Shown in pieces: positions 1 to 42,697 of a stretch of DNA of 64,000 nucleotides (the stretch's first letter is position 1; every line of letters begins with the position of its first letter). The notes beneath the pieces were generated by a model. The model was not told the origin of the DNA. It worked only from the letters and a program-made list of their open reading frames with translations, and searched no databases. Where the stretch lies: NCBI RefSeq assembly GCF_013393345.1, contig NZ_QJRF01000077.1:221129-285128 (forward strand), written 5' to 3'. The DNA is from Pseudomonas taiwanensis. GTDB taxonomy: Bacteria > Pseudomonadota > Gammaproteobacteria > Pseudomonadales > Pseudomonadaceae. A program made the translations under genes and the position numbers.

Positions 1-624
1 GAGTCGGCGCCGGACAAGCCCTTCGTCGGCTTCATCCCCTGGCATTCAGACCTTGTCTTCACTAACCGCCCCAACCACGGCGCCATGCTGCGCGCCGTGG
101 AAACCCCGCAACACGGCGGGGAAACCGCCTGGATCGATACCATTGCGGCCTACGCCGCGCTGCCGGAGGCGATGAAACAGCGCATCGAGCACTTAGAGGT
201 GGAGTATCGATTCTGCACTTCGCTTCTCGACTCTCCTTACGGACGCGACCCACTGCTGCGCATGCAGGTAAAAGGCGAACGCAACTTTCCTGCCTTCCCG
301 CCAGTGGCCCACCCCCTGGTATGGCGCCACCCGGTGAGTGGCCGCAAGGTGCTGAACCTCAGCCCGCTGCACCTGCAACGGGTGGTCAACATGGACGCCT
401 CGGAAAGTCACGCCCTGCTCGAAGAGTTGGTTACCCACGTCACCAGTCGGACGTTCTGCTACGTCCACCACTGGGAGCCAGACGACATGGTGCTGTGGGA
501 CAACTGGCGCACACTCCATTCGGCGCTGGGATACCCCCTGGGTGACCGGCGCCTGGTACACCGCACTACCATCGGCGGCGATACGCAAATGGGTCGAGTG
601 CTGGAAACCGATCAGGTCGCCTGA
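1..624 (+). CDS. TauD/TfdA-family Fe(II)/2-oxoglutarate dioxygenase (5' end outside window)
   Basis: The frame is open from base 1, so the N-terminus lies outside the window; about 207 residues are visible. The iron-binding HxD motif is in the WHSD sequence near base 43. The distal half has FCYVHHWEPDDMVLWDNW followed by a histidine, and the cosubstrate-binding Arg is likely in DRRLVHRTT. The family couples 2-oxoglutarate decarboxylation to hydroxylation of small substrates such as taurine, alkyl sulfates or 2,4-D. The substrate cannot be read from this fragment. The gene ends 36 bp before the convergent regulator gene, which could be functionally linked but need not be. Confidence 0.85.
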   Translation, partial: ESAPDKPFVGFIPWHSDLVFTNRPNHGAMLRAVETPQHGGETAWIDTIAAYAALPEAMKQRIEHLEVEYRFCTSLLDSPYGRDPLLRMQVKGERNFPAFPPVAHPLVWRHPVSGRKVLNLSPLHLQRVVNMDASESHALLEELVTHVTSRTFCYVHHWEPDDMVLWDNWRTLHSALGYPLGDRRLVHRTTIGGDTQMGRVLETDQVA

Positions 625-659
625 CTTGATGGCACCCCGTGCCGGCGGGGTGCCACGCT

Positions 660-1484
660 TCATCCCTGGATCGTCCCCAGATCGCGCATCAACGAACGCA
701 ACATCCTGGCCAGACGCAACTGATCATCCCCTGTCATCTGGTATACGGGGGCATGCTCATGCTGGCGCTGCGAGTTCATGATCTTGTGCAGCACCTCGCG
801 CCCCTTGTCCGTGATGCGAATCAGGTTGGAGCGGGCGTCGTTCTCGTCCGGTCTGCGACTTATGAGGCCGCGCTTCTCGGTCTGGTCGAGATGGCGCGCA
901 GTGGCCGGTAGAGACATGAAGCTAACCTTGGACAGCTCAGTAAGGGTGCTTTCATGGGGCGGTTCGATACGGTCCAGAGTTGCCAGCAGCAGTACCTGCA
1001 CAACATTGAGCTGATGGCGTGAGGCGGCCAGTTCGGAGAGCCGTTCCAGATGCCGGGCTACCAGACGTAGGCGCACGATCAGTCCGACGCTCAGCGGATC
1101 GTGCTCCGGCCACAGGCGCGCCCACTGTTGCATGGCGCGATCCACTGAATCGAACTCGCCGGACGCTGTGCCCTGAGACTCGCCATCGTCCAACAGGCAG
1201 TCGCGCAACTGACCGAACTGCAAGGACAGCGCCTCAAGCGCCTGGGGATTGGCCGAATACAGTCGATAGCGACCCTGGCGCTCGTCCAGGATGAGATCGG
1301 CTTCCTTGAGCACCTTCAGATGCTGGGAAATGGCTGGTTGGGAGATCGGCATTTCCGCTGCGAGCACCTTGACGGCCGCAGGGTGCTCCATCAACCGGGT
1401 GAAAATGGCGCGGCGGGTCGGGTCGGCTAGCGGGCTGAACTGCCCCCAGTTGAGCGACGCCAGCTTTTCATTGACTCGTGCCAT
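660..1484 (-). CDS. Fused ArsR-type plus MarR-type transcriptional regulator
   Basis: The 274-residue protein has two DNA-binding modules. Residues ~10-95 are an ArsR-like winged helix (LADPTRRAIFTRLMEHP, then a recognition helix region ISQPAISQHLKVLKEADLI). Residues ~115-270 look like a complete MarR domain (ASRHQLNVVQVLLLATLDRI, SLPATARHLDQTEKRGLISRR, DENDARSNLIRITDKGREVL). ArsR proteins are usually ~100-120 residues and MarR ~150, so the length fits an in-frame fusion. An AGGTGA ribosome site precedes the ATG. No metal-binding CxC motif is visible in the ArsR part. The target is unknown; the convergent dioxygenase is one candidate. Confidence 0.8.
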   Translation of the reverse strand: MARVNEKLASLNWGQFSPLADPTRRAIFTRLMEHPAAVKVLAAEMPISQPAISQHLKVLKEADLILDERQGRYRLYSANPQALEALSLQFGQLRDCLLDDGESQGTASGEFDSVDRAMQQWARLWPEHDPLSVGLIVRLRLVARHLERLSELAASRHQLNVVQVLLLATLDRIEPPHESTLTELSKVSFMSLPATARHLDQTEKRGLISRRPDENDARSNLIRITDKGREVLHKIMNSQRQHEHAPVYQMTGDDQLRLARMLRSLMRDLGTIQG

Positions 1485-1515
1485 GAGGCATCACCTGTTC
1501 TGTGAAGCCAAGCTC

Positions 1516-1547
1516 GCCGGCAGACAGTCCATCGACTGCCTGCCGGC
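1516..1547. terminator. Hairpin between etfA and the ArsR-MarR gene
   Basis: A GCCGGCAG / CTGCCGGC inverted repeat with an additional CAGT/ACTG inner stem lies just after the etfA stop. There is no clear T-run on the etfA-sense strand, so this may be a weak terminator or an mRNA 3'-end stabilising hairpin. Confidence 0.4.
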
Positions 1548-1553
1548 CCGCAG

Positions 1554-2483
1554 TCAAACCAAGCCTTCCAATTCGGGTACGGCTTCGAACAGGTCAGCCA
1601 CCAGGCCGTAGTCAGCCACCTGGAAAATCGGGGCTTCTTCGTCCTTGTTGATCGCGACGATGACCTTGGAGTCCTTCATACCCGCCAGGTGCTGGATGGC
1701 ACCGGAGATACCGACGGCGATGTACAGCTGCGGCGCGACGATCTTGCCGGTCTGGCCGACCTGCATGTCGTTCGGCACGAAGCCGGCGTCGACGGCGGCA
1801 CGGGAAGCGCCCACGCCAGCGCCCAGCTTGTCTGCAAGGCTGTAGAGGTGCTTGAAGTTGTCGCCGTTCTGCATGCCACGGCCGCCGGAAACGACGATCT
1901 TGGCAGCGGTCAGTTCCGGACGATCGGACTTGGCCAGTTCTTCACCCACGAAGGCGGACTTGCCAGCGTCGGACACAGTGCCCACGGCTTCAACGGCAGC
2001 GGAACCGCCTTCAGCAGCCGCGGCGTCGAAACCGGTGGAACGCACGGTGATGACCTTCACGGCCGCACTGGATTGCACGGTAGCGATGGCGTTGCCGGCG
2101 TAGATCGGACGCTTGAAGGTGTCGGCGCTTTCAACGGCGATGATCTCGGAGATCTGGTCGACGTCCAGCAGGGCAGCCACGCGCGGCAGGTAGTTCTTGC
2201 CGTTGGTGGTAGCGGGTGCCAGCACGTGGCTGTAGCCCTTGCCCAGCTCAGCGATCAGCGGAGCGACGTTTTCCGGCAGTTGGTGCGCGTAGGCAGCGTT
2301 GTCAGCGACCAGCACCTTGGACACGCCCGCGACCTTGGCGGCAGCTTCTGCAGCAGCACCTACGCCCTGGCCAGCGACCAGAACGTGGATATCACCACCG
2401 ATCTTCTGAGCGGCGGTAACGGTGTTGAGGGTGGCAGCTGCCAGCGCGCTGTTGTTGTGTTCAGCGATTACCAGGATTGCCAT
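1554..2483 (-). CDS. etfA: Electron transfer flavoprotein alpha subunit
   Basis: The 309-residue protein is the FAD-binding subunit of the ETF heterodimer. ETF accepts electrons from acyl-CoA and other dehydrogenases and passes them to ETF-ubiquinone oxidoreductase. The C-terminal FAD domain is classical: VSGGRGM near residue 200, [23 protein letters not shown] near 250, then [25 protein letters not shown]. The length is normal for the family. It starts one base after the etfB stop, so the two are co-transcribed as etfB-etfA. Confidence 0.97.
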
Positions 2484-2484
2484 C

Positions 2485-3234
2485 TCAGATCACCTTCGCT
2501 TCGTTCTTCAGTTTCTCGACCAGTTCAGCCACGGACTTGACCTTGATACCCGCCTGGCGGGCGGCCGGTGCTTCAACTTTCAGGGTCTTGACGGTGGAGG
2601 CAGTGGAAACGCCCAGGGCATCCGGGGTGACCACGTCCAGCGGCTTCTTCTTGGCCTTCATGATGTTCGGCAGCGACGCATAGCGCGGCTCGTTCAGGCG
2701 CAGGTCGGTGGTGACGATCGCCGGCAGGTTCAGCGCAACGGTCTGCAGACCGCCATCGATCTCACGGGTGACGTTGACCTTGTCGCCAGCCAGCTCGACC
2801 TTGGAGGCGAAGGTGCCCTGGGCGAAGCCCGTGAGGGCGCCCAGCATCTGGCCGGTCTGGTTGTTGTCGCTGTCGATGGCCTGCTTGCCGAGGATGACCA
2901 GCTGCGGCTGCTCCTTGTCGACCAAGGCCTTCAGCAACTTGGCGACGGCCAGGGAGTTCAGCTCGTCGGCGGACTCGACCAGAATGGCGCGATCGGCGCC
3001 CAAGGCCAGGGCCGTGCGCAACTGCTCCTGGGCTGCGCTAGAACCGACGGTAATGACCACGACTTCAGTCGCGGTGCCCTTCTCTTTCAGTCGGACGGCT
3101 TCTTCCACGGCGATTTCGCAGAAGGGGTTCAGTGCCATCTTCACGTTGGCGAGGTCGACGCCGGAGTTGTCCGCCTTGACGCGGACCTTGACGTTGAAGT
3201 CGACCACTCGTTTGACCGGGACCAGTACTTTCAT
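2485..3234 (-). CDS. etfB: Electron transfer flavoprotein beta subunit
   Basis: The 249-residue protein is the AMP-binding partner of EtfA. Recognisable parts are [20 protein letters not shown] at the N-terminus, the [19 protein letters not shown] region, the nucleotide-binding [19 protein letters not shown] stretch near residue 135, and [40 protein letters not shown] split over the C-terminal half. A Shine-Dalgarno-like GAGAGA precedes the start. From memory, P. aeruginosa etfB is divergent from the ETF-ubiquinone oxidoreductase gene. Here that neighbour is missing and the accessory region begins instead. Confidence 0.97.
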
Positions 3235-3537
3235 GTGATTTCTCTCGAATGACGGTGGCGTAACGCCGCTGGCCGAAGGCCAGGCACACAGCGGCGCTAC
3301 GGGGGCGCCAGCGGGCTAACTTTTGTGTCCCGACAAGAAAATGTCAACATGTCAGTTGTTGAATAACTGAAATATTGTTATTTTTTGATCGCCAACCGAC
3401 GATCTGCTGCAACGCACCTGCGGCGGGCGTCGCATACCTTTCGTAGGTGCAGGTTCCCATGTCGGTCTGCTGAGTCGTCATCCTCGATGGCCGTCCCTGC
3501 CCTACTTTTTTATCCGTGCTCGACAGGAGAAATCGCA
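3235..3537. other. Intergenic region between etfB and the AcnB-like fragment (two divergent promoters)
   Basis: No gene is seen here. The region must carry the etfBA promoter on the minus strand and the promoter of the AcnB-like fragment on the plus strand. The middle (~3330-3385) is AT-rich, unlike its surroundings. The CAGGAGAAATCGCA leader just before the GTG at 3538 looks like an ordinary Pseudomonas ribosome binding site. Confidence 0.5.
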
Positions 3538-3888
3538 GTGCTTGAAGGCTATTTCGAACACGTGAAAGCACGTGCCGAGGAAGGGCTGCCGCCCCTTGCG
3601 TTGGATGCCACGCAGACCGCGGAGCTGGTGGAGTTGCTGAAGAACCCGCCGGCCTTCGAGGAAGCCTTTCTCTTCGACTTGATCTCCAATCACGTGCCAG
3701 CAGGTGTGAACGACGCGGCTTATATCAAGGCCGACTTCCTCTCCGCCATTGTCCGTGGCGATACCTGCTCACCAATAATCGGCAAGCAGCGCGCCACCGA
3801 ACTGCTGGCCGCCATGCAGGCGTCTCTGATGGAAAACCCGAAAATCTGTGCCAAACACCCCCATCAGGTCAGCGATGATCACAACTGA
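3538..3888 (+). pseudogene. Truncated aconitate hydratase B, N-terminal domain only
   Basis: A GTG start with an AGGAG-type site gives a 116-residue protein. Residues 1-~97 align by eye with the N-terminal HEAT-like domain of AcnB: LEGYFEHVKARAEEGLPPL, ELVELLKNPPAFEEAFLFDLISN, VPAGVNDAAYIKADFLSAIV, then SPIIGKQRATELLAAMQ. The last ~18 residues are unrelated and all aconitase catalytic domains (full AcnB ~860 residues) are absent, so it cannot be an aconitase. The 3' end overlaps panC by 14 bp. It may be a broken gene or a retained stand-alone domain; the intact frame and coupling leave the second possibility open. Confidence 0.75.
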
Positions 3889-4741
3889 CAGCATCCAGAC
3901 ATTGCGCGCAGCGTTGCAAAAGGCGCGAGGTCAGAGAAAACGCATCGGGCTGGTACCGACGATGGGCAACCTTCATGAAGGACACATCTCGCTACTGGAG
4001 ATGGCCCGACAGGAAAGTGAATTCATCGTCACCAGCCTCTTCGTAAATCCTTTGCAGTTCGGTCCCCAAGAAGATCTCCAGAGCTACCCGCGAACGCCTT
4101 CTGCAGATCAGAAGGCGCTGTCCAGAGCTGGCTGCTCCGTGCTCTTCGCACCGAGCGTAAAAGAGATGTACCCAGATGGATTGCGCAATCACTGCTGCGT
4201 GATTGTCCCTGGTATATCACGAGGCCTTTGTGGTGACAGCCGCCCAGGGCATTTTGAGGGCGTGGCAACCGTCGTGACCAAGCTATTCAATATCGTTCAG
4301 CCCGACGTTGCGGTGTTTGGCCAGAAAGACTACCAGCAGCTTGCTGTGATTCGAGCACTTACCAACGACTTGAATCTCGCCACGCGCATACTCGCCGCGC
4401 CAACCATTCGCGCCCCCGATGGCCTCGCACTTTCCTCACGCAATGGGTACCTCGCCCCCGCCGAACGCGATATCGCGCCATTACTCTACCGCTGCATCAG
4501 GCAGATAGCAGGCGCTATCGAACGAGGCGAGCGTGACTTCCCGTCACTTATCAAAGATGGGAAGAGCATGCTTCAGAAAGCTGGTTTCCGACTGGACTAC
4601 CTTGAGATCAGAGCAGCGCGGACACTTGAGCCACCCGCTCAGCAGGACAAATCGCTGGTCATTCTGGTTGCAGCATTCATCGGTAATACGCGCTTGATCG
4701 ACAACCTCGAGTGTCGCTTGTGTTCGGAATCTCACTGTTAG
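3875..4741 (+). CDS. panC: Pantothenate synthetase, probably an extra copy
   Basis: The enzyme makes pantothenate from pantoate and beta-alanine with ATP, via a pantoyl adenylate. The 288-residue protein has the full motif set: [17 protein letters not shown] (the HIGH-type site), [51 protein letters not shown], and [14 protein letters not shown] (KMSKS-type loop). I chose the ATG at 3875 because homology begins at [10 protein letters not shown]; it overlaps the AcnB fragment's stop. No panB is next to it, unlike the usual panBC operon, so this is likely a second copy in the accessory region. Confidence 0.92.
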
Positions 4742-4749
4742 CAGTTCCT

Positions 4750-5013
4750 ATGAAGAGCCTGCGATCAGGCCGAAGCACATCTGCCCCAGAATTTAAGTGG
4801 AACGGCCGTCTGTTCGTCTTCACCGGCGTTATGGCATACGGCCCGCGCAAGGACTGCGAAGCCCTGGTCATCGTGATAGGCACTGTTGGTAATGAACAAT
4901 GGCTACACAGCACCTACGGCACCAAAATTACGAAAGCTGTCGAACTCCGCGAATCTGGGGCACAGATCTCCATCGTCAGTGAAGAGCATTGGCAGAAGGC
5001 AGTGTTGGAGTAA
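4750..5013 (+). pseudogene. BRCT-domain remnant with internal deletion
   Basis: The 87-residue product begins a BRCT-like fold (FKWNGRLFVFTGVMAYGPRKDCEALVI) and ends with its typical tail (GNEQWLHSTYGTKITKAVELRESGAQISIVSEEHW). About 20 residues normally found between them, including the strand that reads like 'NYLVVG', are missing: VIVIG runs straight into TVGNEQW. The frame stays open across the deletion. BRCT domains of this type occur at the C-terminus of larger bacterial DNA-repair or replication-related proteins. The upstream part of such a protein is not present. It lies 8 bp after panC. Confidence 0.6.
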
Positions 5014-5040
5014 TTTGCCTAAGCGCAAGGGGGCGGGTAG

Positions 5041-5481
5041 ATGAGTAGACGTAGCCCGAAATCCTTTGCTCACTGGGCAATTGGAGTTGTAGGTGCAGTG
5101 GTTACTGCACTGATTTTCTACCAGCTGCGCATGTACAGAGCCGAGCACAGGCTCGAGCACGATTTGTCCCATATTCTGCGACAGTTGCAGCACAAATCCG
5201 CACCTCAATCACCGGTGGCTCATCGGCGTTCTCCCGAAGAAGTAGCAGCCCACCAAGAGGCTGCTCGCCGGCGATCCGAGATAGATCGCAGAGCCGCAGA
5301 AGAGCTCGCAAAATCTGCTGCCCAAGATCGGCTGAAGGAAGTCTCCTGGTCCGAGTACTTCACTCCGACCCAGCGCTGCCAGATTCCAGAATCTCCGCGC
5401 ATGGTAGAGGTTTGTCAGGCCAACGAGGCCAAACTCCGAGCCAGATTCGAAGCCGATTGGGCTGCGGGGAAGCGCACATGA
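5041..5481 (+). CDS. Small membrane-anchored protein of unknown function
   Basis: The 146-residue protein has one N-terminal membrane helix (residues ~10-28, HWAIGVVGAVVTALIFYQL). A charged, Glu/Arg-rich stretch likely to be coiled coil follows (~55-110), and the C-terminal segment has two cysteines (TPTQRCQIPE, MVEVCQANEAKLRARFEADW). An AGGGGGCGGGTAG leader precedes the ATG. I do not recognise a named family. The topology is reminiscent of small phage or island lysis/spanin-like proteins, but there is no further support for that. Its stop overlaps an ATG at 5478 that opens only a short broken frame. Confidence 0.65.
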   Translation: MSRRSPKSFAHWAIGVVGAVVTALIFYQLRMYRAEHRLEHDLSHILRQLQHKSAPQSPVAHRRSPEEVAAHQEAARRRSEIDRRAAEELAKSAAQDRLKEVSWSEYFTPTQRCQIPESPRMVEVCQANEAKLRARFEADWAAGKRT

Positions 5482-5683
5482 GCCGCATGCGTTACTGTCA
5501 ATCCAACGGCTCAGACCAGTGTCTAACTTTGACGTGATCGTTACGGTGGATGAAATTCAGTTTGTCGCTACGAACCGGAACCCTGAAAAGGGGGGTAGCG
5601 ATGTCGAGAACCTGCAAATGATTGTGAGCTTCTCCCAGCCAGTAAGCGGGATATCTAACGGCGAGGCCGACTTGATGATTTAG
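5478..5683 (+). pseudogene. Possible short frameshifted gene after the membrane protein
   Basis: An ATG overlapping the previous stop (ATGA) gives MSRMRYCQSNGSDQ and then a stop near 5537. From about 5519 another frame runs open to a TAG at 5681-5683 and encodes a plausible soluble sequence (VSNFDVIVTVDEIQFVATN, then ENLQMIVSFSQPVSG). The pattern fits a single +1 frameshift in a ~65-codon gene, or a separate 54-codon gene starting at GTG 5519. No family is recognised. Confidence 0.35.
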
Positions 5684-5688
5684 CAAGC

Positions 5689-5716
5689 ACACCCTGAGGT
5701 TCGCGCCTCAGGGTGT
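5689..5716. terminator. Strong hairpin, candidate terminator
   Basis: A perfect 11-bp inverted repeat, ACACCCTGAGG / CCTCAGGGTGT, with a 6-base loop lies after the short frame ending at 5683. There is no long T-run, so termination is inferred from stem strength and position. Confidence 0.55.
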
Positions 5717-5830
5717 TGTGCATTACGGAGGCGGCAAGGGTCGATTTTGCCTCATCCGTGATAAACCAAGGTCACATGCAGAGGCATCCAATCGGTAAAG
5801 CTAGCTTTGTGCCGACACCCGTTCTGATTG

Positions 5831-7159
5831 CTAGATTGCGGCCGTGGGCAGTGTCATGCGCAGGCTTTCGCGATACTGCTCAGCTGGCGCTTCGTGAATG
5901 ACTTCGACGGCCGCATCGTAGTTTTCTCGAATGACCGACTCGATCTTGGCAATGTCCGCACGGAAGAATTCCTTGCGCCCGTTGACCTTGTTTAGGCGAC
6001 CTGCAGCAAAGCGTTCGTGCAGCTTCGCTTCCAGCGCTGGGGCGTTGTCAGAGAAGACCATCGTATGCACGTCAAACCAGAATGGCACCGATGCGTCGCC
6101 CAGTTCGTCGACGCGTTCCATCGGTTCCAGGCGGCGAGTCATCCCGATCTTGTAAACCCCTTCACCAAATGCCCCTACGTTGGATATCACATAGACGTAG
6201 CCGGCCTTGGCATTCTGTTCGCGATAGTCGATGAGTTTCTCTTCGCTCTCCAACGCGGCCCGGCCCATTTCAATCTCAGCCAGTTTTGCCAAGAGTGGCA
6301 CGCGCTCCTGTTCAGACGTTGCCTTGCCCAAGCGTGCCTGGAGATCACGCATAGCGGTCGCGAAGTGTTTACGCTCCTTGGCGATCTTCTCCCGGGCGGC
6401 GCGAATTTCCTGCTCAAGCTTCTGCTGCTCCCGCAGTTCTTCTCGGGCCCGCTTGGCTTCTTCTTTTTCCTCTTGCTTCTTGATCTGAAACTCATGGGCA
6501 AGGTGCAGCTCATCGAGCTTGAGGGCCAGGTATTTGCGGGATATCTCCACGTCCATAATCTTGCCCAGGCGATTGCAAGCTTCGAACGATTTGAGAATTC
6601 GCTTCTCGCCCAGCTCGACATTATCGAACTTTACGTTGTCCACGCAGTAATCTGCTTCATTGTTGAAAGATCGGATCACCAACTTGATCATGTCGGTTAC
6701 GAGCTTACGCCCTTGGGCTTGGCTGCCATTGACCGTCCAGGCCATATTTCCGGTGGCCGCCGTCCCCCCCTTGATCATTGTCTTCTGGTGTTCGCGCACA
6801 CTGTCCAGTCGGGACTTGTACTCGTGGCTGGCATTCAGCTTGAACTTCGGCTCATAGAGCGCAAAGCTCTCCAGAAGGAGCGTCTCCTCCCATACGAGGA
6901 TCTGCCCTTGTAGGTCGGAGGAGCGTTGCACAAGCGCCGCCTTCTCCTGCTCCGCTAGCTGAACTTCCTGGCGGACCGCCGCAAGCTTTCCTTTCTCTCG
7001 TTCAATCAGTCGTTGAATTTCTAAGACGTCCATGGCGCCGATCTTCCTATTGAGCGCTTGCAGTTGCGCATAGCGCGCCTGAAGGTCGGAAAGCTGGATC
7101 TCCAGGTCATCTGCCCGCTGCCGGTGCGCTGGGCCCTTCCAGTAGTCGCTAAAGGACAT
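5831..7159 (-). CDS. DUF4041 protein with C-terminal T5orf172 (GIY-YIG-like) domain
   Basis: The 442-residue protein starts with a long coiled coil (residues ~10-110). A DUF4041-like region (~115-260) and a second charged helical stretch (EEKEEAKRAREELREQQKLEQE) follow. The C-terminal domain near 330-430 contains GYVYVISNVGAFGEGVYKIGMT split around the GIY-YIG-type core, then LEAKLHERFA and NGRKEFFRADIAKIE, typical of the T5orf172/MUG113 nuclease-like family. GGAAGGA lies 5 bases before the ATG at 7159, which I prefer over the upstream frame extension to 7273. Such proteins are common in prophages and accessory islands; a nuclease or defence role is inference. Confidence 0.8.
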   Translation of the reverse strand: MSFSDYWKGPAHRQRADDLEIQLSDLQARYAQLQALNRKIGAMDVLEIQRLIEREKGKLAAVRQEVQLAEQEKAALVQRSSDLQGQILVWEETLLLESFALYEPKFKLNASHEYKSRLDSVREHQKTMIKGGTAATGNMAWTVNGSQAQGRKLVTDMIKLVIRSFNNEADYCVDNVKFDNVELGEKRILKSFEACNRLGKIMDVEISRKYLALKLDELHLAHEFQIKKQEEKEEAKRAREELREQQKLEQEIRAAREKIAKERKHFATAMRDLQARLGKATSEQERVPLLAKLAEIEMGRAALESEEKLIDYREQNAKAGYVYVISNVGAFGEGVYKIGMTRRLEPMERVDELGDASVPFWFDVHTMVFSDNAPALEAKLHERFAAGRLNKVNGRKEFFRADIAKIESVIRENYDAAVEVIHEAPAEQYRESLRMTLPTAAI

Positions 7160-7375
7160 AGGTTCCTTCCTGGTTGCTGCATCGAAGGGTGATTCAGTTC
7201 TAAACGCCAGTCTGGAAGCTTTATAGCGCAACCTCTGCGGTCTAGCAGGTGCTTTCTGGAGCCCCTGCCCCAACAGCGATCACTCGCCGGAGTGGTCCTA
7301 GCCATCCGCTTCCGGCCGATAAGACTCGATCGACCGATTTGCTGCCAGCAAACCTAGTCATTCAGCCTAATCATT

Positions 7376-7425
7376 AGCTAAAAACGGATGATTAGCTGTC
7401 CAGCTAAACCAGCCTTAACAGCTAA
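7376..7425. promoter_or_regulatory. Cluster of four AGCTAA/TTAGCT hexamers
   Basis: AGCTAA occurs at 7376-7381, 7402-7407 and 7420-7425, with its complement TTAGCT at 7392-7397: four copies in 50 bp. They lie between the divergent DUF4041 and Phd-type genes. This spacing suggests an operator cluster, possibly bound by the Phd-type protein. It is a pattern seen in the sequence only. Confidence 0.4.
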
Positions 7426-7566
7426 AGAAAACGGTCATCGCCACGCTGCCAATGCCGCCTGCAATGGCGGCGATCCATGGAATTATCCTGTTGTCAGTTG
7501 AGCGCGCCGTGGCTTGAAATCCCGTCTATTTTCAGACTTCTGTTTGCCTCCGTGGGAGCTCTACCA

Positions 7567-7830
7567 ATGCGAATCCAAACGATCAGCTACCTCAAGCAGC
7601 ACGCAGCAACGCTGGATCTCGACGAACCACTTTGCATCACCCAGAACGGCCTGCCCACGATGGTCGTTCAGTCCTACGAGCAGTACCAACAAACCCAGGA
7701 GGCCATCGCCCTAGTGAAGCTACTCAGCATGGGTGACAAAGACACCGAGAGCGGTCGACTCGTCACCGGCGACGAACTCCTACAGAAACTGGCGAGTCGC
7801 CCCCCTCGCACTGACAACTCCGGCGCCTGA
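7567..7830 (+). CDS. Phd/YefM-type antitoxin-like protein without visible toxin
   Basis: The 87-residue protein has the usual N-terminal Phd/YefM DNA-binding fold (ISYLKQHAATLDLDEPLCIT then QNGLPTMVVQSYEQYQQTQE), followed by a C-terminal tail that in relatives wraps the toxin. The ATG at 7567 follows GGGAG at a good distance. Phd/YefM partners (Doc, YoeB, RelE or ParE types) normally lie immediately downstream. Here the next 160 bp has no convincing gene, so the protein appears to be an orphan or a solitary regulator. Confidence 0.75.
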   Translation: MRIQTISYLKQHAATLDLDEPLCITQNGLPTMVVQSYEQYQQTQEAIALVKLLSMGDKDTESGRLVTGDELLQKLASRPPRTDNSGA

Positions 7831-7995
7831 AATGGACGTAGGAACCGGCTCCTTTCGGTCGGAAGCTGGCCTGCGATTCGCCTCAGAGCATCGCGCTCTC
7901 CACTGAAGGGTCGGTTCGCCGTCACCCGCACACCCTGCCCGCAATCGAAGCGAAGAGGGACTCGATTCTCGACTTAGGTTCTTCCAATCAATTGC

Positions 7996-8505
7996 TCATC
8001 CCGCTGAGGTGTCGGCGGCGCCGTCTTGGATGAATTGTTTGGGGTTCGAACGATGTCGTCGTGCTTGCCCGCGCGACCGCGACGCTTGCTGCTGCGCATA
8101 CAGCGCCTGACTTGCCGTCACCGCGCCAACCGCTTGACCGTTCAAGTCTAGGCGCGGCGCATTCTCGACCATGCTTGCCCAGTATCGAGTCCCGCGGCAC
8201 CAAATAGCGATCCCTAGTTTGAGCTGTTCGCGTGTTAGCCCCAGCATCTCCAAGTGTTGCTCAGCATCCTTGAAGATACCTTCCTTGAGCGGAACCTTGG
8301 GGGCCGGATTGACAGGGAAGGCCAAGGGGAAAAGCTTCTGCAATCGCCAATTCGCTTCCACCGCAGGATCTTGGCCACGAGACTTTGCTTGCGGGGAGGA
8401 CTTCCGCTTAGGGGGCTTCGGGCTGGCAGTCGATACCTGCTTGACCTCAGCCCGCAGACGGTCACGTAACTCGGCGAGCTGTTCAAAACCCATCGTTTGA
8501 TTCAC
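7996..8505 (-). CDS. ProQ/FinO-family RNA chaperone
   Basis: The 169-residue protein starts at GTG 8505. It has a basic N-terminal linker (PKPPKRKSSPQAKSR), a ProQ/FinO core at ~55-125 (WRLQKLFPLAFPVNPAPKVPL, then KDAEQHLEMLGLTREQLK and WCRGTRYWASMVENAPRLDLNG) and a basic C-terminal tail (SRSRGQARRHRSNPKQF). Family members bind structured RNAs and sRNA duplexes; plasmid and island versions such as FinO regulate transfer. Its place beside the recombinase operon suggests an island-encoded copy. Confidence 0.85.
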   Translation of the reverse strand: MNQTMGFEQLAELRDRLRAEVKQVSTASPKPPKRKSSPQAKSRGQDPAVEANWRLQKLFPLAFPVNPAPKVPLKEGIFKDAEQHLEMLGLTREQLKLGIAIWCRGTRYWASMVENAPRLDLNGQAVGAVTASQALYAQQQASRSRGQARRHRSNPKQFIQDGAADTSAG

Positions 8506-8971
8506 TGCTTCCTAGTTGATTCGTGGCGTAAGGTTGTCCCATGCCGCTCACGCTCATCAGCCTATGCAGACTCAATAGAGACAGGCCAGTTTTTTATCGC
8601 GATCAATTGTGCAGGCCAACTGCCAGACCCAAGTGGAGCTTTAGGTAGAAGCAACCACTCACAGAAGCACTTCCTGGCCAATAGCTGCTTTATTTCGGGA
8701 GACAGCTTCCGGTCGGGTGCGCCATACAATGAAAGAGCTGACGAGCGGACCGGCAAGCCTGAAGTAATCGCAGCCAGGTTAGCGCAATGCGGATCTAAGT
8801 TGGCCACATCAGCCGCAGGATTTCGGAGTCGGCGCGAAGCCAACGTGAACGTAGAAGCTAACAGCCGAACTCTGGCGGAATGTTTTCCCAAGAAGAGGAG
8901 ATCGAGTGCAGTATGACGGAGTTTCCGTCAAAAGTAGTACCAGTTATACCACGTCAAAAGAACGCTCAACG
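8506..8971. other. 466-bp gap between gmtX-like gene and proQ/finO-like gene
   Basis: Frames on both strands exist here (for example 8562-8891 minus and 8497-8916 plus), but none has a recognisable domain, a good ribosome site or typical codon use. A short GACGGAgtTTCCGTC inverted repeat lies near 8917-8931. I see no convincing gene. Confidence 0.4.
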
Positions 8972-9571
8972 CTAGAGGTATTCCAATGCCTTCTTTAATG
9001 CTGGGATGGTTCCCGGTTTGAAAACTTTTCGCCCAGTCGAGTCAGTCACATCTCCGAAGCCCCCCAACTGAAACCCGAATTGCTTGAGAAAATCATCAGA
9101 GACCAAATGCTCCAACGCCCTCCGCTCAATACTATTGAGCCTATGATCACCTGAGGTGAACTCCCTATCATCCACATAGATTTCCATTCTTGGAGGAACA
9201 ATCTCCCTAAGCATTTTACGAGCCTCATTCAACTCTGACTCCTGAATTTGCACTAACAACCTCAACTGAGGGTCTTTAATATCAGAGATCCATTGAGTCT
9301 TAGAGCGACCAGACGGGGATAATCGCGTCTTTGGGTAAGCCGCTGTAAATGCACCAATCAATGTACGATAACACTCTCCGGTCCGATTTCTGATACTTTG
9401 GGCCTTTGGAACGCCCCGACCCGCGCCAAGTCTGGATATAGTTGCCACCGAGAAATCGAATTCTGATTTCCTCACCTGCTCCTCGCAGATCGCAAAAATA
9501 CTATCCAAACTTCTACAAACTCGCTGAGACGCACCAACTTTAAGGTTCTGAAGAATCTGATCCAAGTGCAT
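8972..9571 (-). CDS. gmtX: Third gene of recombinase trio, GmtX-like
   Basis: The 199-residue protein starts at ATG 9571 (MHLDQILQNLKVGASQRV) inside the end of the preceding large gene, a 32-bp overlap that implies coupled translation. It has no catalytic motif I can name. The N-terminal part (SLDSIFAICEEQVRKSEFDF, then SVATISRLGAGRGVPKAQSI) looks like a small DNA-binding module, as in accessory proteins of recombinase trios. The assignment to the gamma-mobile-trio set is from gene order, size and neighbours, recalled and not searched. Confidence 0.6.
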   Translation of the reverse strand: MHLDQILQNLKVGASQRVCRSLDSIFAICEEQVRKSEFDFSVATISRLGAGRGVPKAQSIRNRTGECYRTLIGAFTAAYPKTRLSPSGRSKTQWISDIKDPQLRLLVQIQESELNEARKMLREIVPPRMEIYVDDREFTSGDHRLNSIERRALEHLVSDDFLKQFGFQLGGFGDVTDSTGRKVFKPGTIPALKKALEYL

Positions 9572-12500
9572 AAACAACACCCTCACTGGAGCGCAGACTA
9601 TCCGCGAGAATAACATCAATCTCAACCTTCTCGATTCTTTCCGAATCAAGCAGATCAGCAAACAACAGACGCCCGTCGACCAGGTCGTCAATCCGCTCCC
9701 ACGACCTTACTCGAGAAACCAATAGCTGCGCTACCTGATTACCAACTACCAACTGCTGCTCTTGAGAGAGAGAGTAAAAGAAAGTCGGAATCTTATTATA
9801 ACTCATCATCCGATCTAAAAATTGCGAACGAGTAGCCACTGCCAAACTAGAGGAAGAAGACTCATAAATTTCTGCATTCGAGCAAACTTCACACAACTGG
9901 TGAAAATAGGAAACCTCCTCAAAGGCCACGTCCAACTCGTGACCCGACTGAACAACCAGTTGGGTGTGAATCTCACCATCACAAGACTCAACTTGCTGCC
10001 CCACCAAGCCATCGCACTGCATTAACAGACGTGCCCCAGCCTGCATGTCGCACATGAACATATCCAACTTCTTCGCGGCGCTTTCGCTCTCTGATCGCAG
10101 TTTTCTGAGCCTCACCTCTAACTCGTCACGTATTGATGAATCAAATACCGATCCCCGCGCCACAGCCTGGTACTCTTCTTCATCCAACGTGTCAATTTCT
10201 ATTAGAATTCCGGCCACTTTTTCCTCTAGACCGCTATACGCTTCATACTGGACCCTCACATTCAGTGATATTTCATTGAGTACCGACACCAAACCACCAA
10301 TAAAAGCCGGACCGGTTACAAAATGTCGGCACCGGAGACAGTTTTGACACCCTAGGTAACCGTAAGGAACTGGAAACCGTACCTGGGGGTTGTTAGATAA
10401 AGGCCCACCATCTTCGCAGCGCGTTCCGGCGTATGGGCAAAATCCATAATCTCGGAAAAGATAATTTCCAGCAGGAACGTTTCCCGATAGCGCCTCGATG
10501 AGGCCACCATCAGTTGCGATTAAGCCCGGCTTAAGCTCATCTATACGACCTTGCTCAATCATCATCTGAGCGGCATACGCCTTATTTTTAAGCGCTTCTT
10601 TTTCAGCCTTCTCTAACCTCGATCTAAATTCTTCCACCCCAATCTTGCAGTAATAGATGGTCACCACAATGGAAGAGTGACCAACTATCTTCATAACAAT
10701 CTCTACCGGCAGACCAAATTCCATTATATACGCAGTAATAAGACTAACACGCATACTATGCGGTGTATAACGCGAACTGTATTTCGACAGCGAACCAGGG
10801 GCCCCGCTAAGTTCGGCCAATTTTAAGCTCTCTGGCTGACTATAATAAAGAGCAGCCGCCAATCTCGCACTCAACTTCTCACTAAAGCCAAGAGGTTCCT
10901 CGCTACCAACACCTCGAAATAGAAAAAAATTAGCACCTTTAGCCTTGAGTTGAGCCTCATTAAAGTTCGTTTTTTTGCATTCAACCCACGGAAGAGGACG
11001 TTTAACTGGATTATATTTACTTTGCCACTTCCTTAGTTTTACCAACCAATATGCCAAGCTCATTGGAATCCATGCAACATTATACCCCTTTTCGATAGAC
11101 CCAGTTTTATTGGTAGTAAAATGCATTCCAAATTGATCATTTGGATATCTCTTCACGAATCCTTGAGCTTCTGTGAGACCTGCAAATTCAGAAAAATTCT
11201 CAACCCACACAAGTCTATCCTGCACTACCTCAGGAAAATATTTATCGCCTTCACCCGAGTCATTGTATGCAATTTGAACTCCCCGAGCTGGAACTGACGC
11301 CAAAGCAAAGGTTTGTATCCAACAAATGGGCGACCAGATCATAAGCTTACCGCCTGACATCTTTAACACGCAGTCGGCGTCATTTTCGTCCGTAAAAGTC
11401 CGAGACATGTCGACTTCGACCCAATCAGCATCAAAAATGTGCAAGTGTTGCAAATCAGAGAAATTCTTAGCGCTCGGTGGAATCATCCAGTTTTTCATAT
11501 CATCAACATACTGGTACGCTAACGCTGGCTTACAGCTTTCTCCGAGCCCACTGCCAACGTATTCGGGGACGACCCCGGACGATGCAATTGGATTTCGGGC
11601 GCCAGGAACCGAAACTAACTCTCCTGTCACCTCATCTTCAATTGTCAATCTCGTTAAGATGACATGCTCGATCAGTTCATTAACTGCCAACCAGACTGGA
11701 CGGCGATATCTTTCCGGGAATTCCGACTCAAGAAACTCTTTAAACTCCCTAGCGTTACACTTTCCGTTCAATATAAAGTCAACCGGTGAAATTCCCAGTT
11801 CGTTTTTTTGGATAAAAAGCCTTACAAACATGCACAAACACTTTTTCTTTGAAAAACCTCCGCGTGCTTTCCTCATTAAATCAACAATCGCGTCACGCCA
11901 CTCAGAGTAACGCTCTACAATGTTATCAATGGTGAAAGGCTCAGACTTACCAAGATACTCATTCCAACTCACCCAATCCCCCGCATACACCTGATCTGGT
12001 GTTCTGGGAAGAAAATCGCACCTATTCGAATCGATGAAATTTATGTAAGCCTTTTTTGATTTCAATTCGCTAGAGCGAATGAAGGCGCATGCATCTTTAT
12101 AACTCAAAAATGTAACAAGCCCCAGAAGATCAAACCAATCAACCCACTCCCCCCGAAAGAATCGATCTGGATTTGCTGGCATAGGTGGGTGCTTCTTATA
12201 TTCCTCTCTATATTCTCGTGCACTCCCTAATTTTAATATCTTGCATGCTCGTCTTAAATCAGCCAAACAGCGGTATTCAACTGGCAGCAAAAAATCCAGC
12301 CACCCTTTCCATTCGTGCACATACTTCTGCTGGGGTGAACCAGGCAATCCTCTGTCCTGCATATACATCGTTTCATAGTCTCTCCGACTATGGATGGGCA
12401 ATTTCTGCACGGCCGCTCGGGCCTCCCCCAATGTAAGGTATATTTCTTCGCGCCGCGTACTTACACTAAAAAAATCACTCGGACCTTTCCACTCTTTCGG

Positions 12501-13529
12501 ATACTTCAAACGAGGATTCCTAGGAAGTCGGGGATCGGCAGAGCGCCTCTCACAGTACTCACGCCAACTAGTGATACCCAGACGCTCAACAGCTGATTTG
12601 GCCTCTTCAAATATATTATATACTTGCTCGGTCTCGAGAACCCCTAGATATGCGCTCCAACCTGCCCACTCTTCCAAATATACATCCTGAGGATTCCAGG
12701 GAAGCCTTTTATCTATCTTAAGAGCGCGTCTATATTGCGCCTTTTTCGTTACGCCTAGCGCCCTAACGGCACACATCGCACTCTCAAGATCCTTGTACTT
12801 TTCAACTGGAGTTTCCATGCCGAGGAAATCGTACCAATTGACCCATTCCTCAGGGTAAGATAAAGCCGGATTACTCCTAAGCCCAGAATCTAATTTATAC
12901 AACCTAATATATTCCAGCGTGCTCTTGGCACCCAATCTTCGCGCAGCCGCACTCGCCTCCGCTAGCGTTGGATATTTATTAGATAATTTCTTCAGAAATT
13001 TTGGCCAACCCGCCCAATCTTTATAATATTTTTCAGGATTCGCAGGCAGCCGAAGATCTTCAATATGCCTTTCCCCATATTCGTAACAAGTTCTTATCCC
13101 TAGCGATAACGCAGCATTAGATGCCAGTTCAATTTCAGAATAGAAGTCCCACTCAGGCTTACCGAGAAAATTTCGCCAGCCAATCCAATCTGGATATACA
13201 ACTTCTGGACTAGCCCTTAGCCTAGGATCATTTTTATATTTACCTGAATAATCCATAGAACTCGTGATATTGAGTCTAATTGCAGCGGCCGAAGCCTCCG
13301 CCAAGGTGGCATAACGAGCAGGGCGAACACCACTCCCCAAGAACATGGGCCATCCGCACCACTCATCCGGATATTGCTGCTTTGGGGTTTTCGGTAATCT
13401 TGGATTTTTCTTATAACCTGCTTTGTAAGCACGAGCATTCTTGAAACCAAGGGACTGCGCCGCACGACTTGCCTCTTCAAAGGACAGGTACAAGCCGTCA
13501 ATCAAACTAGTCGCTATTTTTTGATTCAT
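9540..13529 (-). CDS. gmtZ: Very large tyrosine recombinase with phage-integrase repeat array, GmtZ-like
   Basis: The 1329-residue protein starts at ATG 13529 after AAGG. Residues ~12-540 hold about nine ~57-residue units of the INT_rpt (phage-integrase repeat) type. Each has a core like YPxEWxGWxxFLG, a helix like TLxEAxxAAxxLGI, and an ending like DPRLPxNPxxxY. The C-terminal half carries a tyrosine recombinase core: YTPHSMRVSLITAYIMEFG (~res 920), KIVGHSSIVVT, and the likely nucleophile in IYYCKIG (~res 958). A Cys cluster follows (GFCPYAGTRC and GYLGCQNCLRCRHF) and may bind zinc. It should cut and join DNA during island movement. The region is clearly more AT-rich than its surroundings. 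Confidence 0.75.
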   Translation of the reverse strand: MNQKIATSLIDGLYLSFEEASRAAQSLGFKNARAYKAGYKKNPRLPKTPKQQYPDEWCGWPMFLGSGVRPARYATLAEASAAAIRLNITSSMDYSGKYKNDPRLRASPEVVYPDWIGWRNFLGKPEWDFYSEIELASNAALSLGIRTCYEYGERHIEDLRLPANPEKYYKDWAGWPKFLKKLSNKYPTLAEASAAARRLGAKSTLEYIRLYKLDSGLRSNPALSYPEEWVNWYDFLGMETPVEKYKDLESAMCAVRALGVTKKAQYRRALKIDKRLPWNPQDVYLEEWAGWSAYLGVLETEQVYNIFEEAKSAVERLGITSWREYCERRSADPRLPRNPRLKYPKEWKGPSDFFSVSTRREEIYLTLGEARAAVQKLPIHSRRDYETMYMQDRGLPGSPQQKYVHEWKGWLDFLLPVEYRCLADLRRACKILKLGSAREYREEYKKHPPMPANPDRFFRGEWVDWFDLLGLVTFLSYKDACAFIRSSELKSKKAYINFIDSNRCDFLPRTPDQVYAGDWVSWNEYLGKSEPFTIDNIVERYSEWRDAIVDLMRKARGGFSKKKCLCMFVRLFIQKNELGISPVDFILNGKCNAREFKEFLESEFPERYRRPVWLAVNELIEHVILTRLTIEDEVTGELVSVPGARNPIASSGVVPEYVGSGLGESCKPALAYQYVDDMKNWMIPPSAKNFSDLQHLHIFDADWVEVDMSRTFTDENDADCVLKMSGGKLMIWSPICWIQTFALASVPARGVQIAYNDSGEGDKYFPEVVQDRLVWVENFSEFAGLTEAQGFVKRYPNDQFGMHFTTNKTGSIEKGYNVAWIPMSLAYWLVKLRKWQSKYNPVKRPLPWVECKKTNFNEAQLKAKGANFFLFRGVGSEEPLGFSEKLSARLAAALYYSQPESLKLAELSGAPGSLSKYSSRYTPHSMRVSLITAYIMEFGLPVEIVMKIVGHSSIVVTIYYCKIGVEEFRSRLEKAEKEALKNKAYAAQMMIEQGRIDELKPGLIATDGGLIEALSGNVPAGNYLFRDYGFCPYAGTRCEDGGPLSNNPQVRFPVPYGYLGCQNCLRCRHFVTGPAFIGGLVSVLNEISLNVRVQYEAYSGLEEKVAGILIEIDTLDEEEYQAVARGSVFDSSIRDELEVRLRKLRSESESAAKKLDMFMCDMQAGARLLMQCDGLVGQQVESCDGEIHTQLVVQSGHELDVAFEEVSYFHQLCEVCSNAEIYESSSSSLAVATRSQFLDRMMSYNKIPTFFYSLSQEQQLVVGNQVAQLLVSRVRSWERIDDLVDGRLLFADLLDSERIEKVEIDVILADSLRSSEGVVYALGSDSSEP

Positions 13530-13758
13530 GATTGACCTTCCCCAAAAGGAAGTCGTCCCACTCAAGCCAGCCCCCAAGCGCGTCCGTGCTGCTTTTCATG
13601 GATATCCGTAAATCTTCTTGGCTCACACTAGGAATCCCCTCCCGCCGCTTTAAATTCTCTCTCAGGGGTTCAACCAAAAAATCTCGCCACTCACTCCAAG
13701 CCCCGGCATAGCGCATAGTCCCTTTCCCGTTGATTTTCGCACTCTTTACGGCCTTCAT
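13507..13758 (-). CDS. 83-residue protein with integrase-repeat-like motifs, upstream of gmtZ
   Basis: A strong GGAGG site 5 bases before the ATG at 13758 supports translation. The stop lies 22 bp inside gmtZ, so the two are likely coupled. The protein has two partial copies of the repeat core found in GmtZ: YAGAWSEWRDFLVEP and GGWLEWDDFLLGK. It may be a detached first repeat unit of GmtZ, or a separate DNA-binding helper. I know of no described function. Confidence 0.65.
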   Translation of the reverse strand: MKAVKSAKINGKGTMRYAGAWSEWRDFLVEPLRENLKRREGIPSVSQEDLRISMKSSTDALGGWLEWDDFLLGKVNHESKNSD

Positions 13759-13932
13759 ATGCCCTCCGACCAACTTAAGCCAATGCAACCTATGCCCGCG
13801 GACAACTCAATCTAACAATCACTTATTATCATCTATAAGCAATTGAAGAGTTTTCGCAAGGAGCCAATACCCCTCAAAATTAAAAACACCCTACACTCTT
13901 AAAACTCTCTATCCAAACAATAATCGATAAAC
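13759..13932. other. AT-rich spacer between gmtY and the small repeat protein
   Basis: This is 174 bp of very AT-rich sequence with no gene. It may hold a promoter for the small ORF-gmtZ-gmtX group on the minus strand. No single -35/-10 pair stands out. Confidence 0.35.
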
Positions 13933-15276
13933 TCATTCCAATTTACGCATCATTTCACGCACGTCTGCATCACTAGGCTGCGTGTACACCAACGAAGACT
14001 TAGGACTTTTATGATGCAGCGCCTTCTGAATAAATATTGCATCGAATCCATTTTCCTTAAGTCTGTAACCATAACTATGGCGATGACCATGCTCCGTGGT
14101 CCCGCAAATTTTTAAAGGAACCAAACCAATCCTCCTCACAGCCAACGAATGCAGCCTTTGATAATTTTTTATAGTTTCTGGACGGCCATAGCTATTAGTA
14201 AAAGCATATGGATGCTCTTCCCCAGGAGAGGGCGACACTCGTTGAAACTTTATATAATTCACCCAGGCAAGTAGAAACTCCTTCGCTTTGCTGGGAGGGC
14301 AAAAGTTTACTTTAAAGCAACCACCTGCATCAGTTAACAATGGCGATTTCCATCCTAGATGCAGCCTTTCAGACTTCGGGTATTCAGTCCTAGGTTTTAG
14401 GCGAAACTCTCGGCTTAAATACTCACGACGGGTCCTATATCGCGCGTCAGGAGACGTACCAGTGCTAGGGTGATACACATGTACGTCCACTTCCATTCTT
14501 TTCTTATCAAAAGTAATGTCACAGCCATACAAATGAAAACATTCACACTTCCGCAATCCACCATAGTGCTGGAGTAACGTGATCGCTTGAGACTTGTAAT
14601 CTATACGCATGGTCTCAGGATCAAAAGACGAAGTTCCAGCCAATACAAACCCTTCTTTCAGCAGGACGTGAATTTTATCTTCCGGAAACCTTTTAACTTC
14701 TTCCAGACGTAAAACTGGAGCGCCTGGAATAGATACCTCTCTAACAAAAGCATTAGCATCAGCATCTCGGCTTGCGATCAGATGATTGAGAAAAACCCCA
14801 CTATTTCGATGATAATATGCACACCAATTTAACTTGCACTCTTCAGAGCTAGCTCTGCGGAATGGATTCGCACGGCGCGAATCATGTAATGGCTGCTCTG
14901 CCAACCAATCTGTGTAGCTTGTAATTTGGAAAAGTATCGATCTTGCATCATGAAAACGACGAGGCGCCCAATATAACTGGCTAGGATCCTCATACGTTTC
15001 GCGATCAATAGTTCCTTCGGTAAGAGCATAGGTAAACGCCGAAAGCATATCTATTACGCGAACAAATCGAGACTCATTAGCAAAAATGAACTTTAGAAGA
15101 AGAATGACTGAGTGCACTGAACTTTCGCGCCAGGACGCACTTTTTCCAGAGCGACTCGATAGGTAACGGAGATGGGAAACCAGTAATCCTGACTGGGTGA
15201 AGACCCCAGGTAGCTGAATGACTTGGCTTCGCAGACCGTCTCGATATTTGACTTTGATCTTAACCGCATAGGCCAT
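13933..15276 (-). CDS. gmtY: Tyrosine recombinase, GmtY-like, first gene of the trio
   Basis: The 447-residue protein begins MAYAVKIKVKYRDGLRS. An N-terminal SAM-like region is followed by a recombinase catalytic domain. The first catalytic Arg is in HYGGLRKCECFHLYGCDI (~res 241). The HxxR box is EHGHRHSYGYRLKENG (~res 395), then LHHKSPKSSLVYTQ with the likely nucleophilic tyrosine near residue 430. It is the gene nearest the greB junction, where element-end recombinases usually sit. Alternative view: a member of another multi-recombinase module such as the Tn554/TRIO type. The gmt name is from memory of the gene trio. Confidence 0.7.
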   Translation of the reverse strand: MAYAVKIKVKYRDGLRSQVIQLPGVFTQSGLLVSHLRYLSSRSGKSASWRESSVHSVILLLKFIFANESRFVRVIDMLSAFTYALTEGTIDRETYEDPSQLYWAPRRFHDARSILFQITSYTDWLAEQPLHDSRRANPFRRASSEECKLNWCAYYHRNSGVFLNHLIASRDADANAFVREVSIPGAPVLRLEEVKRFPEDKIHVLLKEGFVLAGTSSFDPETMRIDYKSQAITLLQHYGGLRKCECFHLYGCDITFDKKRMEVDVHVYHPSTGTSPDARYRTRREYLSREFRLKPRTEYPKSERLHLGWKSPLLTDAGGCFKVNFCPPSKAKEFLLAWVNYIKFQRVSPSPGEEHPYAFTNSYGRPETIKNYQRLHSLAVRRIGLVPLKICGTTEHGHRHSYGYRLKENGFDAIFIQKALHHKSPKSSLVYTQPSDADVREMMRKLE

Positions 15277-15279
15277 GAG

Positions 15280-15403
15280 AGAACCCTCCGACTTAGTATG
15301 TTGAGGGTAACAAGCTCGTCAAATCCGCTCGTCGCGCCACAGAGGCGAGGGTAATTAGCGGATTTTGGTGATATTCATTTAGTACATTGATAGCTGGGGT
15401 TCT
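15280..15403. repeat. Inverted repeats at the element/greB boundary
   Basis: Two nested inverted repeats fill the gap between gmtY and greB. The outer arms are AGAACCC (15280-15286) and GGGTTCT (15397-15403). The inner arms are AAATCCGCT (15321-15329) and AGCGGATTT (15357-15365). The outer right arm ends three bases before homology to greB begins. They could be recombinase binding sites at the island end. Confidence 0.5.
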
Positions 15404-15405
15404 AA

Positions 15406-15735
15406 TACACCTACGGGAAGAAGATGCTGCGGGAGATCGACAGTCGCGTTCGCTTCCTCACCAAGCGCCTGGAAAACCTCAAAGTGGTACGCGAACGTCC
15501 GAGCGATCCCGACAAGGTCTACTTTGGCGCCTGGGTCACCCTGGAGGATGACGATGGTGAGCAGGTCCGTTACCGCATCGTCGGGCCTGACGAGTTCGAC
15601 CTGAAGCAGAACCTCATCAGCATCGATTCTCCCCTTGCCCGCGCGCTGGTGGGCAAGCCGCTGGACGCCGAAGTCCGGGTCAGCACCCCAACCGGGGAAA
15701 AGACCTGGTACGTGGTAGAGATCGATTATCCGTAG
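15406..15735 (+). pseudogene. greB: greB 3' fragment (transcription elongation factor), 5' end lost
   Basis: From 15406 the frame reads YTYGKKMLREIDSRVRFLTK, matching GreB where E. coli has ADYQYNKKRLREIDRRVRYL. It continues through the C-terminal FKBP-like domain (KVYFGAWVTLEDDDGEQVRY, ISIDSPLARALVGKPLDAEV, TPTGEKTWYVVEIDYP). About 109 of ~158 residues remain. The N-terminal coiled-coil part including the acidic tip that enters the RNA polymerase channel is absent, so cleavage-factor activity should be lost. An in-frame TAA precedes the homology directly. The ATG at 15424 could start a short peptide but lacks a clear ribosome site. The missing half is not elsewhere in this window. Confidence 0.85.
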
Positions 15736-42363: not shown

Positions 42364-42439
<76 letters not shown>

Positions 42440-42451
42440 GTAAAACAAAAG

Positions 42452-42527: not shown

Positions 42528-42533
42528 TGAAAT

Positions 42534-42609
<76 letters not shown>

Positions 42610-42697
42610 ATGCAACTTTTACAGCCTGCACCTTCCGGTGCATCCCTCAACCCTTATCGGGTCTTGGCAAGCAAGGCCGTGGCCCTGCTTTTGAATC

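Follow-up and report, generated by a model that had tools for sequence, protein, structure and literature searches.

How can a mobile island use a conserved coding motif of its host as a landing site? The question is raised by a 64,000-nucleotide stretch of Pseudomonas taiwanensis (the window; positions 221,129 to 285,128 of contig NZ_QJRF01000077.1, below C70), in which the genes gmtY-gmtZ-gmtX stand at the edge of an island that splits greB, the gene for the RNA-polymerase cleavage factor GreB. The founding study of such Gamma-mobile-trio (GMT) islands is reportedly that of Mahata et al. 2024 (Nat Microbiol 9:3268). At its other end the island carries a second, complete greB, and split and intact greB occurred together in other GMT genomes. 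Comparison of these sequences makes it quite probable that the island belongs to a greB-specific GMT lineage whose own greB compensates for the destroyed host copy.

The trio and the interrupted host greB

The three genes lie in this order on the minus strand with open reading frames, and their products scored above the curated NCBIfam cut-offs that served as the criterion of identity; domains were assigned with Pfam. gmtY (13933..15276) encodes a tyrosine recombinase of 447 amino acids (aa) that matched NF040693 with 468 bits (cut-off 340) and contains a Phage_integrase domain (PF00589). gmtZ (9540..13529) encodes a large integrase of 1329 aa from its ATG, or 1345 aa from an upstream TTG (NF047926, 647 bits, cut-off 600); it matched PF13009 and PF14882, showing Integrase_2 and nine INT_rpt stretches, and had a weak match to Phage_integrase (E 6.6e-4) that fell short of the Pfam cut-off. 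gmtX (8972..9571) overlaps gmtZ by 32 bp and encodes 199 aa from its ATG (NF040692, 191 bits, cut-off 40), with no recombinase domain match in the Pfam scan. In the alignments, the tyrosine-recombinase motif residues (H-x-x-R, H and Y) did not vary in 19 of 19 GmtY and 19 of 19 GmtZ sequences, those of the window included and two of 21 genomes left out for sequences that were too short. Only one GmtZ was found in the genome by profile search. A preliminary description of the window had named the trio from its gene order and sizes, and the profile search bore this out; the sizes, common strand and overlap were confirmed from the ATG starts. Its term "three-recombinase" operon fits GmtY and GmtZ and fails for GmtX. 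The operon is AT-rich, as described there, with a guanine-plus-cytosine (GC) content of 0.44-0.47 across 9-15 kb of the window versus 0.58-0.68 (mostly >0.62) from 16 kb onward. Between gmtY and gmtZ, a minus-strand reading frame of 93 aa (13507-13788) holds two pieces that by eye resemble INT_rpt halves; it had no Pfam match.

The island is a discrete insertion that relatives lack. Contig C70 was collinear with the contig of a related genome, G016, except for a single clean insertion within greB, which is uninterrupted in G016. Among 18 genomes of the genus, GmtY exceeded its cut-off only in P. taiwanensis, and a weaker match of 125 bits was found in G011. Judged from the junctions against G016, the whole island occupies C70:84739-236533, or 151,795 bp when a 6-bp footprint is counted in; window positions 1..15405 hold its right-hand part and the remainder lies left of the window. 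The 5' part of the host greB (C70:84604-84738, plus strand) covers TIGR01461 model positions 2-46, and the 3' part, 151.8 kb further along the same strand (15406..15735), covers positions 47-155 and encodes GreB from Tyr48. The insertion point falls between residues 47 and 48 (these positions, Tyr48 included, follow what we take to be E. coli GreB numbering), directly behind the codons of GDRSENA(D/E), presumably the GreB tip motif that bears the catalytic acidic residues. Both junctions lie within one 391-kb contig. The gmtY start is 129 bp from the right end of the island, where comparison of junctions with G016 and 20 other islands revealed an imperfect terminal inverted repeat (15379..15405, minus strand; TTAGAACCCCAGCTATCAATGTACTAA read inward); its partner at the gmtY-distal end runs from C70:84745 (TTGTGCCCCCAGGGCACATACTAAA). 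The island edge proposed in the preliminary description was thus real, with the other edge 151.8 kb away and outside the window, and the operon neither lacked profile matches nor was shared by all relatives. That description had missed that greB is split and present in an extra copy, where the far end lies, and that the cargo is largely catabolic.

Recurrence of split and intact greB

A complete, divergent greB lies 95 bp inside the far end of the island (C70:84833-85297, minus strand), on the strand opposite to the split host greB, 151 kb from the trio and adjoining a helix-turn-helix (HTH) gene. The island type of GreB is 53% identical to the host type.

GmtY family searches gave matches above the cut-off in 9 of 390 genomes of the order and 26 of 398 of the family, sets that overlap with each other and with the genus set (1 of 18). 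At 20 loci of GmtY relatives in named genomes, the C-part of GreB (from residue 57 of the query) was located within 3 kb upstream of gmtY in 19; the remaining locus (40% identity) sits in a radical-SAM gene. GreB was searched in the order and family genomes with a GmtY match of E 1e-60 or better and in those that hold 19 of the 20 named loci. An N-piece, a C-piece and an intact GreB were found together in 21 of 21 distinct genomes (22 entries, one genome appearing twice), which had been chosen for their C-piece, and also in 5 of 10 and 4 of 22 further GMT genomes, so that all 30 genomes with a split greB had an intact GreB. Both pieces were on one contig in 20 of the 30, and the intact greB was between them in every one of these 20. 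By contrast, among 23 other GMT genomes without a split greB, 22 had one GreB (that of G387 just under the cut-off) and G616 had two, one of them 82% identical to the copy of the P. taiwanensis island, and a second GreB match at E <1e-20 was found in 0 of 37 relatives; this group for comparison is small, and genomes that are related do not count as independent.

The extra greB came next after gmtX in 25 of the 30 genomes. Eighteen of the first 21 had this order, with a gap of less than 100 bp in 17 and of about 445 bp in G776, as did seven of the nine later genomes, with gaps of about 4 to 508 bp. In four genomes (P. taiwanensis, G557, G771 and G498) it was instead within 102 bp of the greB N-piece, and in G609 it was 8.3 kb from that piece. 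It ran opposite to the target in all 19 islands of the first set that allowed the comparison and in 6 of 7 later same-contig islands. The residues GDRSENADY were kept in 19 of 21 extra GreBs, the other two having SDNADY and SENGDY. Two plasmids, from Pseudomonas sp. NY8896 and Halomonas sp. THAF12, which were the two inspected of the four closest plasmid matches, were annotated with gmtY, a VPA1269-family gene (gmtZ), gmtX and greB in succession, and no further greB was annotated in the plasmid regions inspected. In one genome (G453:C1:277430-283190, locus L209), about 5.8 kb separates the greB C-piece from gmtY, and the trio is not at the very end of the island.

Island ends, proposed mechanism and descent of the two greB types

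The gmtY-side end read TAGTA...GGGGTTATAA, or a near form of it, in 21 of 21 islands and abutted greB directly. On the gmtY-distal side of the same 21 islands, six variable bases, delimited by eye from the junction alignment, stood between greB and the inverted island end. The 21 islands had 21 different 6-mers, three of which matched the six greB bases at the opposite junction of the same island, as expected if the donor site was a greB; for the other footprints, plasmids are plausible donor sites. The pattern in the 21 islands matches the footprint of Tn554-like transposons, a few bp carried over from the previous site without target duplication, as judged from the island ends. The same pattern is reported for strand-biased elements (SEs), in which the 6 bp to the left of the donor site end up on the right-hand side of the new one, and for Tn554-related elements; the table of the SE paper gives no empty site for SEs (PMC10214605). 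If GMT islands behave like SEs, insertion into greB would be irreversible, which on our reading would explain the need for a replacement.

These observations suggest how the element may work. GmtY and GmtZ, helped by GmtX, would probably insert the element, in circular form, into the greB site through a recombination of the Tn554/SE type, leaving a 6-bp footprint of the previous site at the gmtY-distal end. The site would consist of the greB codons just past GDRSENA of the GreB catalytic tip, and insertion would destroy greB. The intact divergent greB of the element, which mostly stands next to gmtX but in this island lies at the far end, would restore GreB function, and this compensation may turn a highly conserved gene into a tolerable and widely available landing site.

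GmtY distances followed those of the extra GreB (Spearman 0.84, partial correlation 0.74) more closely than those of the target GreB (0.66 and 0.39) across 17 of the 21 islands, four being omitted because GmtY was partial or the flanks could not be joined. A GreB tree was built from 23 extra copies (plasmid ones included), 20 targets and 25 host GreBs found in 29 loci. The P. taiwanensis target grouped with G016 and G003, and its extra copy with that of G557 (support 100/99), apart from the host GreBs of the family. The extra copies did not form one clean clade (7 label changes), and with several long branches their deep placement is unsure. The targets of G774 and G782 branched inside the main extra-copy clade. 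For G774, the DNA preceding greB in Acinetobacter modestus had its counterpart no more than about 165 bp from the C-end of the greB that is split and of the mobile type, with 73% DNA identity over the nearest 4.2 kb, as if the greB of an earlier island had become the resident gene and had then been hit again. The split pieces of G696, G697, G639 and G626 were closer to the island copy than to the GreB of their own genus (67-86%), which as a sign of earlier replacement is suggestive only.

Two further lines of evidence were considered. The neighbourhood on the C-side of greB across Acinetobacter failed as a marker of the native locus, and comparison of the N-side flank served better. The extra greB may be recoded where the island attaches, as a guard against self-insertion: the Arg codon before the site was CGY in 19 of 21 targets versus 5 of 21 extra copies (Fisher test against other Arg codons of the same genes, p 0.016 and 0.023), but the overall test was weak and related sequences are not independent.

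Cargo, alternatives and meaning

The neighbours of the trio named in the preliminary description were verified with Pfam and PADLOC: a ProQ/FinO-domain protein (7996..8505, minus strand; PF04352, E 6.5e-29) and a DUF4041/T5orf172 protein of the PD-Lambda-1 anti-phage type (5831..7273, minus strand; PADLOC PD-Lambda-1, E 2.2e-143; PF13250 and PF10544). Between them lies a gene for a Phd/YefM-type antitoxin (7477..7830, plus strand; PF02604, TIGR01552), for which no toxin partner was identified. Next comes a catabolic block that also occurs in the genome G006. It ends with panC (3848..4741, plus strand; TIGR00018, 333 bits, cut-off 213; G006 match 82%) and includes etfA-like (1554-2483) and etfB-like (2485-3234) genes on the minus strand, whose ETF alpha/beta matches were all below the equivalog cut-offs. 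An AcnB-like N-terminal fragment precedes panC (3382-4741 for the two), is 61% identical to an intact AcnB on another contig, and recurs with the panC DNA at the end of the block shared with G006.

Over the whole island 129 genes were called (starts rough), 38 of which were scanned besides those near the trio. Products of the scanned genes include acyl-CoA dehydrogenases, an AMP-binding CoA ligase, thiolase-like, ChsH2-like and MaoC-like proteins, a KshA-type Rieske oxygenase, a P450, a GMC oxidoreductase, MMPL, DUF1302 and DUF1329 proteins, two transposases, GlcD and GlcF with malate synthase G, and FolE with a FolX-type epimerase; a second KshA-type Rieske oxygenase, at C70:119281, is indicated solely by the start of the listed gene, which is near-identical. 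The block would fit a steroid- or terpenoid-like catabolism, its substrate being unproven. No antibacterial effector, relaxase or type IV secretion gene was seen in the portion of the 129 genes that was scanned.

A 134.9-kb span of the island (C70:90997-225848) is found again in G006 in inverted orientation, with about 123 kb aligned at 87-91% identity, falling to 82% at the panC end, and with 122.5-132.5 kb largely missing. No gmtY, gmtZ or greB match was found in 320 kb searched around the G006 block, where one marginal GmtX match occurred (E 0.001), indicating that the catabolic block also exists outside GMT islands. A marker gene of the block was found in P. taiwanensis and G006 only, among 57 relatives searched. 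A 20-kb piece of the block compared with plasmids gave 58 records, the best 10 of which were matches of about 300 bp around an IS5-type transposase. Beside the block in G006 (C1:3157000-3204500, L188-L191) are several near-identical tandem units with Zot-like proteins that by eye resemble filamentous prophages. Elsewhere in the window, five clustered tRNA genes lie on the minus strand at 42364-42861, in the order Gly-Glu-Gly-Gly-Glu along plus-strand coordinates.

The extra greB might be ordinary cargo or a paralogue unconnected with the insertion site. The distance of the P. taiwanensis copy from the trio and its HTH neighbour would fit this, as would GMT islands that target a radical-SAM gene and lack a comparable target copy; however, an intact extra GreB occurred in 30 of 30 split genomes versus 1 of 23 GMT genomes without the split, it stands behind gmtX in most islands and on two plasmids, and it tracks GmtY in the distance correlations, which makes this explanation improbable. 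A misassembly that joined the greB halves to foreign sequence is hardly credible: the genome is a draft of 77 contigs, but both junctions are inside one contig and are structured as in 20 other islands. We are more hesitant about the trio being a fossil in an island now fixed and immobile. Movement was not observed, 152 kb is large, and the truncated gmtY of G786 shows that such islands can decay; on the other side, the three frames are open, the motif residues are invariant, the island ends are recognisable, and GmtY above the cut-off is absent from 17 of 18 genus genomes. All in all, we regard a fossil as possible and somewhat doubtful. Rather likely, by comparison, is a composite origin of the 152-kb interval, in which a small GMT element at greB was joined later, by another route, by the large catabolic block. 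The recurrence of the 134.9-kb span in a region of G006 almost free of trio matches, the lowest GC at the gmtY end, and the size of the island (151.8 kb, the largest of the 20 greB islands whose two pieces share a contig, the others being 11.7-82.7 kb) favour it, against which stand the standard greB type of both outer junctions and the lack of a second GmtZ in the genome. This alternative concerns the growth of the island and can hold together with compensation by the extra greB.

Several observations nevertheless weigh against compensation by a greB-specific lineage. The reading presupposes activity of the trio, a circular intermediate, strand exchange, and expression and function of the extra GreB. 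The island greB (C70:84833-85330) has no ATG near the expected start, and a TTG start is likely but unproven. Some targets are of the mobile type, which shows that the extra copy is not immune to insertion. Recoding at the site is weak: codons near it were identical in 35 of 99 cases versus 771 of 1700 elsewhere, in an alignment with a gap at the junction, and without G557 codon-column lows of similar size appeared at other Arg, Ala and Leu codons. The greB pieces are on separate contigs in 10 of the 30 genomes, where flanking of one island is not established; the extra greB of G609 is oriented the same way as its target; and the gmtY truncation in G786 counts here as well. The island of G639 (C46:33000-44000, L205) has its gmtY side turned towards the N-piece of greB, contrary to all other islands, and a non-standard junction with the C-piece, possibly through inversion or a composite structure. 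Finally, a second GMT group (L101, L121, L122, L125 and L127) is inserted directly behind the CTFCD codons (a Cys motif) of what is presumably a radical-SAM gene, probably catalytic codons again. No second target copy was detectable in 5 of 5 carriers among 8 genomes searched with a 41-aa query, only a truncated N-terminus, so that target replacement is not borne out as a rule for all GMT islands.

GMT islands have been described, in the parts of the sources considered, as armouries of toxins and defence systems (PMC12039261, PMC12715929). The P. taiwanensis island resembles these in having gmtY-gmtZ-gmtX at one end and a defence gene in its cargo, and differs in its fixed greB target, its extra greB and its largely catabolic 152-kb cargo. 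Among the literature matches listed, greB as a GMT target appeared in no title or abstract opening, a comparison that did not take in the founding GMT study and does not show absence from print. The closest published idea in the source excerpts concerns Tn552-II, a 9-kb staphylococcal transposon of the Tn554 type in which tnpABC lie next to tgl, a gene that resembles the target gene; according to its authors, tgl may rescue the target disrupted by insertion (PMC12486829). That element brings in a 7-bp att from the donor and has a yolD-like target, so that it shares recombinase genes beside a target-like gene and a few-bp donor footprint with our island, a likeness of layout, and differs in size, host and target. 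SEs share the imperfect inverted repeats and the 6-bp footprint but have four core genes, intA-tfp-intB-srap, compared with three gmt genes here and greB next to them in most relatives; the word greB does not occur in the main text of the SE paper (PMC10214605). GInts, as excerpted, likewise combine a multi-gene recombinase module with islands that capture gene clusters, but have four gin genes and flanking imperfect direct repeats, and their targets are, according to the authors, probably not fully inactivated (PMC5385486).

Our results suggest that the element makes up for the damage done to greB and may take over the host gene. The bolder proposition, which we put forward tentatively and hold to be the less likely outcome, is that a mobile element has taken over a core transcription gene, with host GreB lost for good, the host dependent on the GreB of the element, and greB overwritten repeatedly across Gammaproteobacteria. 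If this were true, copying out in the SE manner without restoration of the target would remove host GreB permanently at each insertion, later islands would land in a resident mobile greB, and retention of the element could bring it an addiction-like benefit. P. taiwanensis also provides a 152-kb GMT island with largely metabolic cargo, set against the toxin and defence armouries that published excerpts describe. As to how a conserved coding motif can serve as a landing site, the answer would be that the element brings the gene along, and it becomes testable whether the target is compensated for, whether the host comes to depend on the element and whether a core gene is replaced serially.

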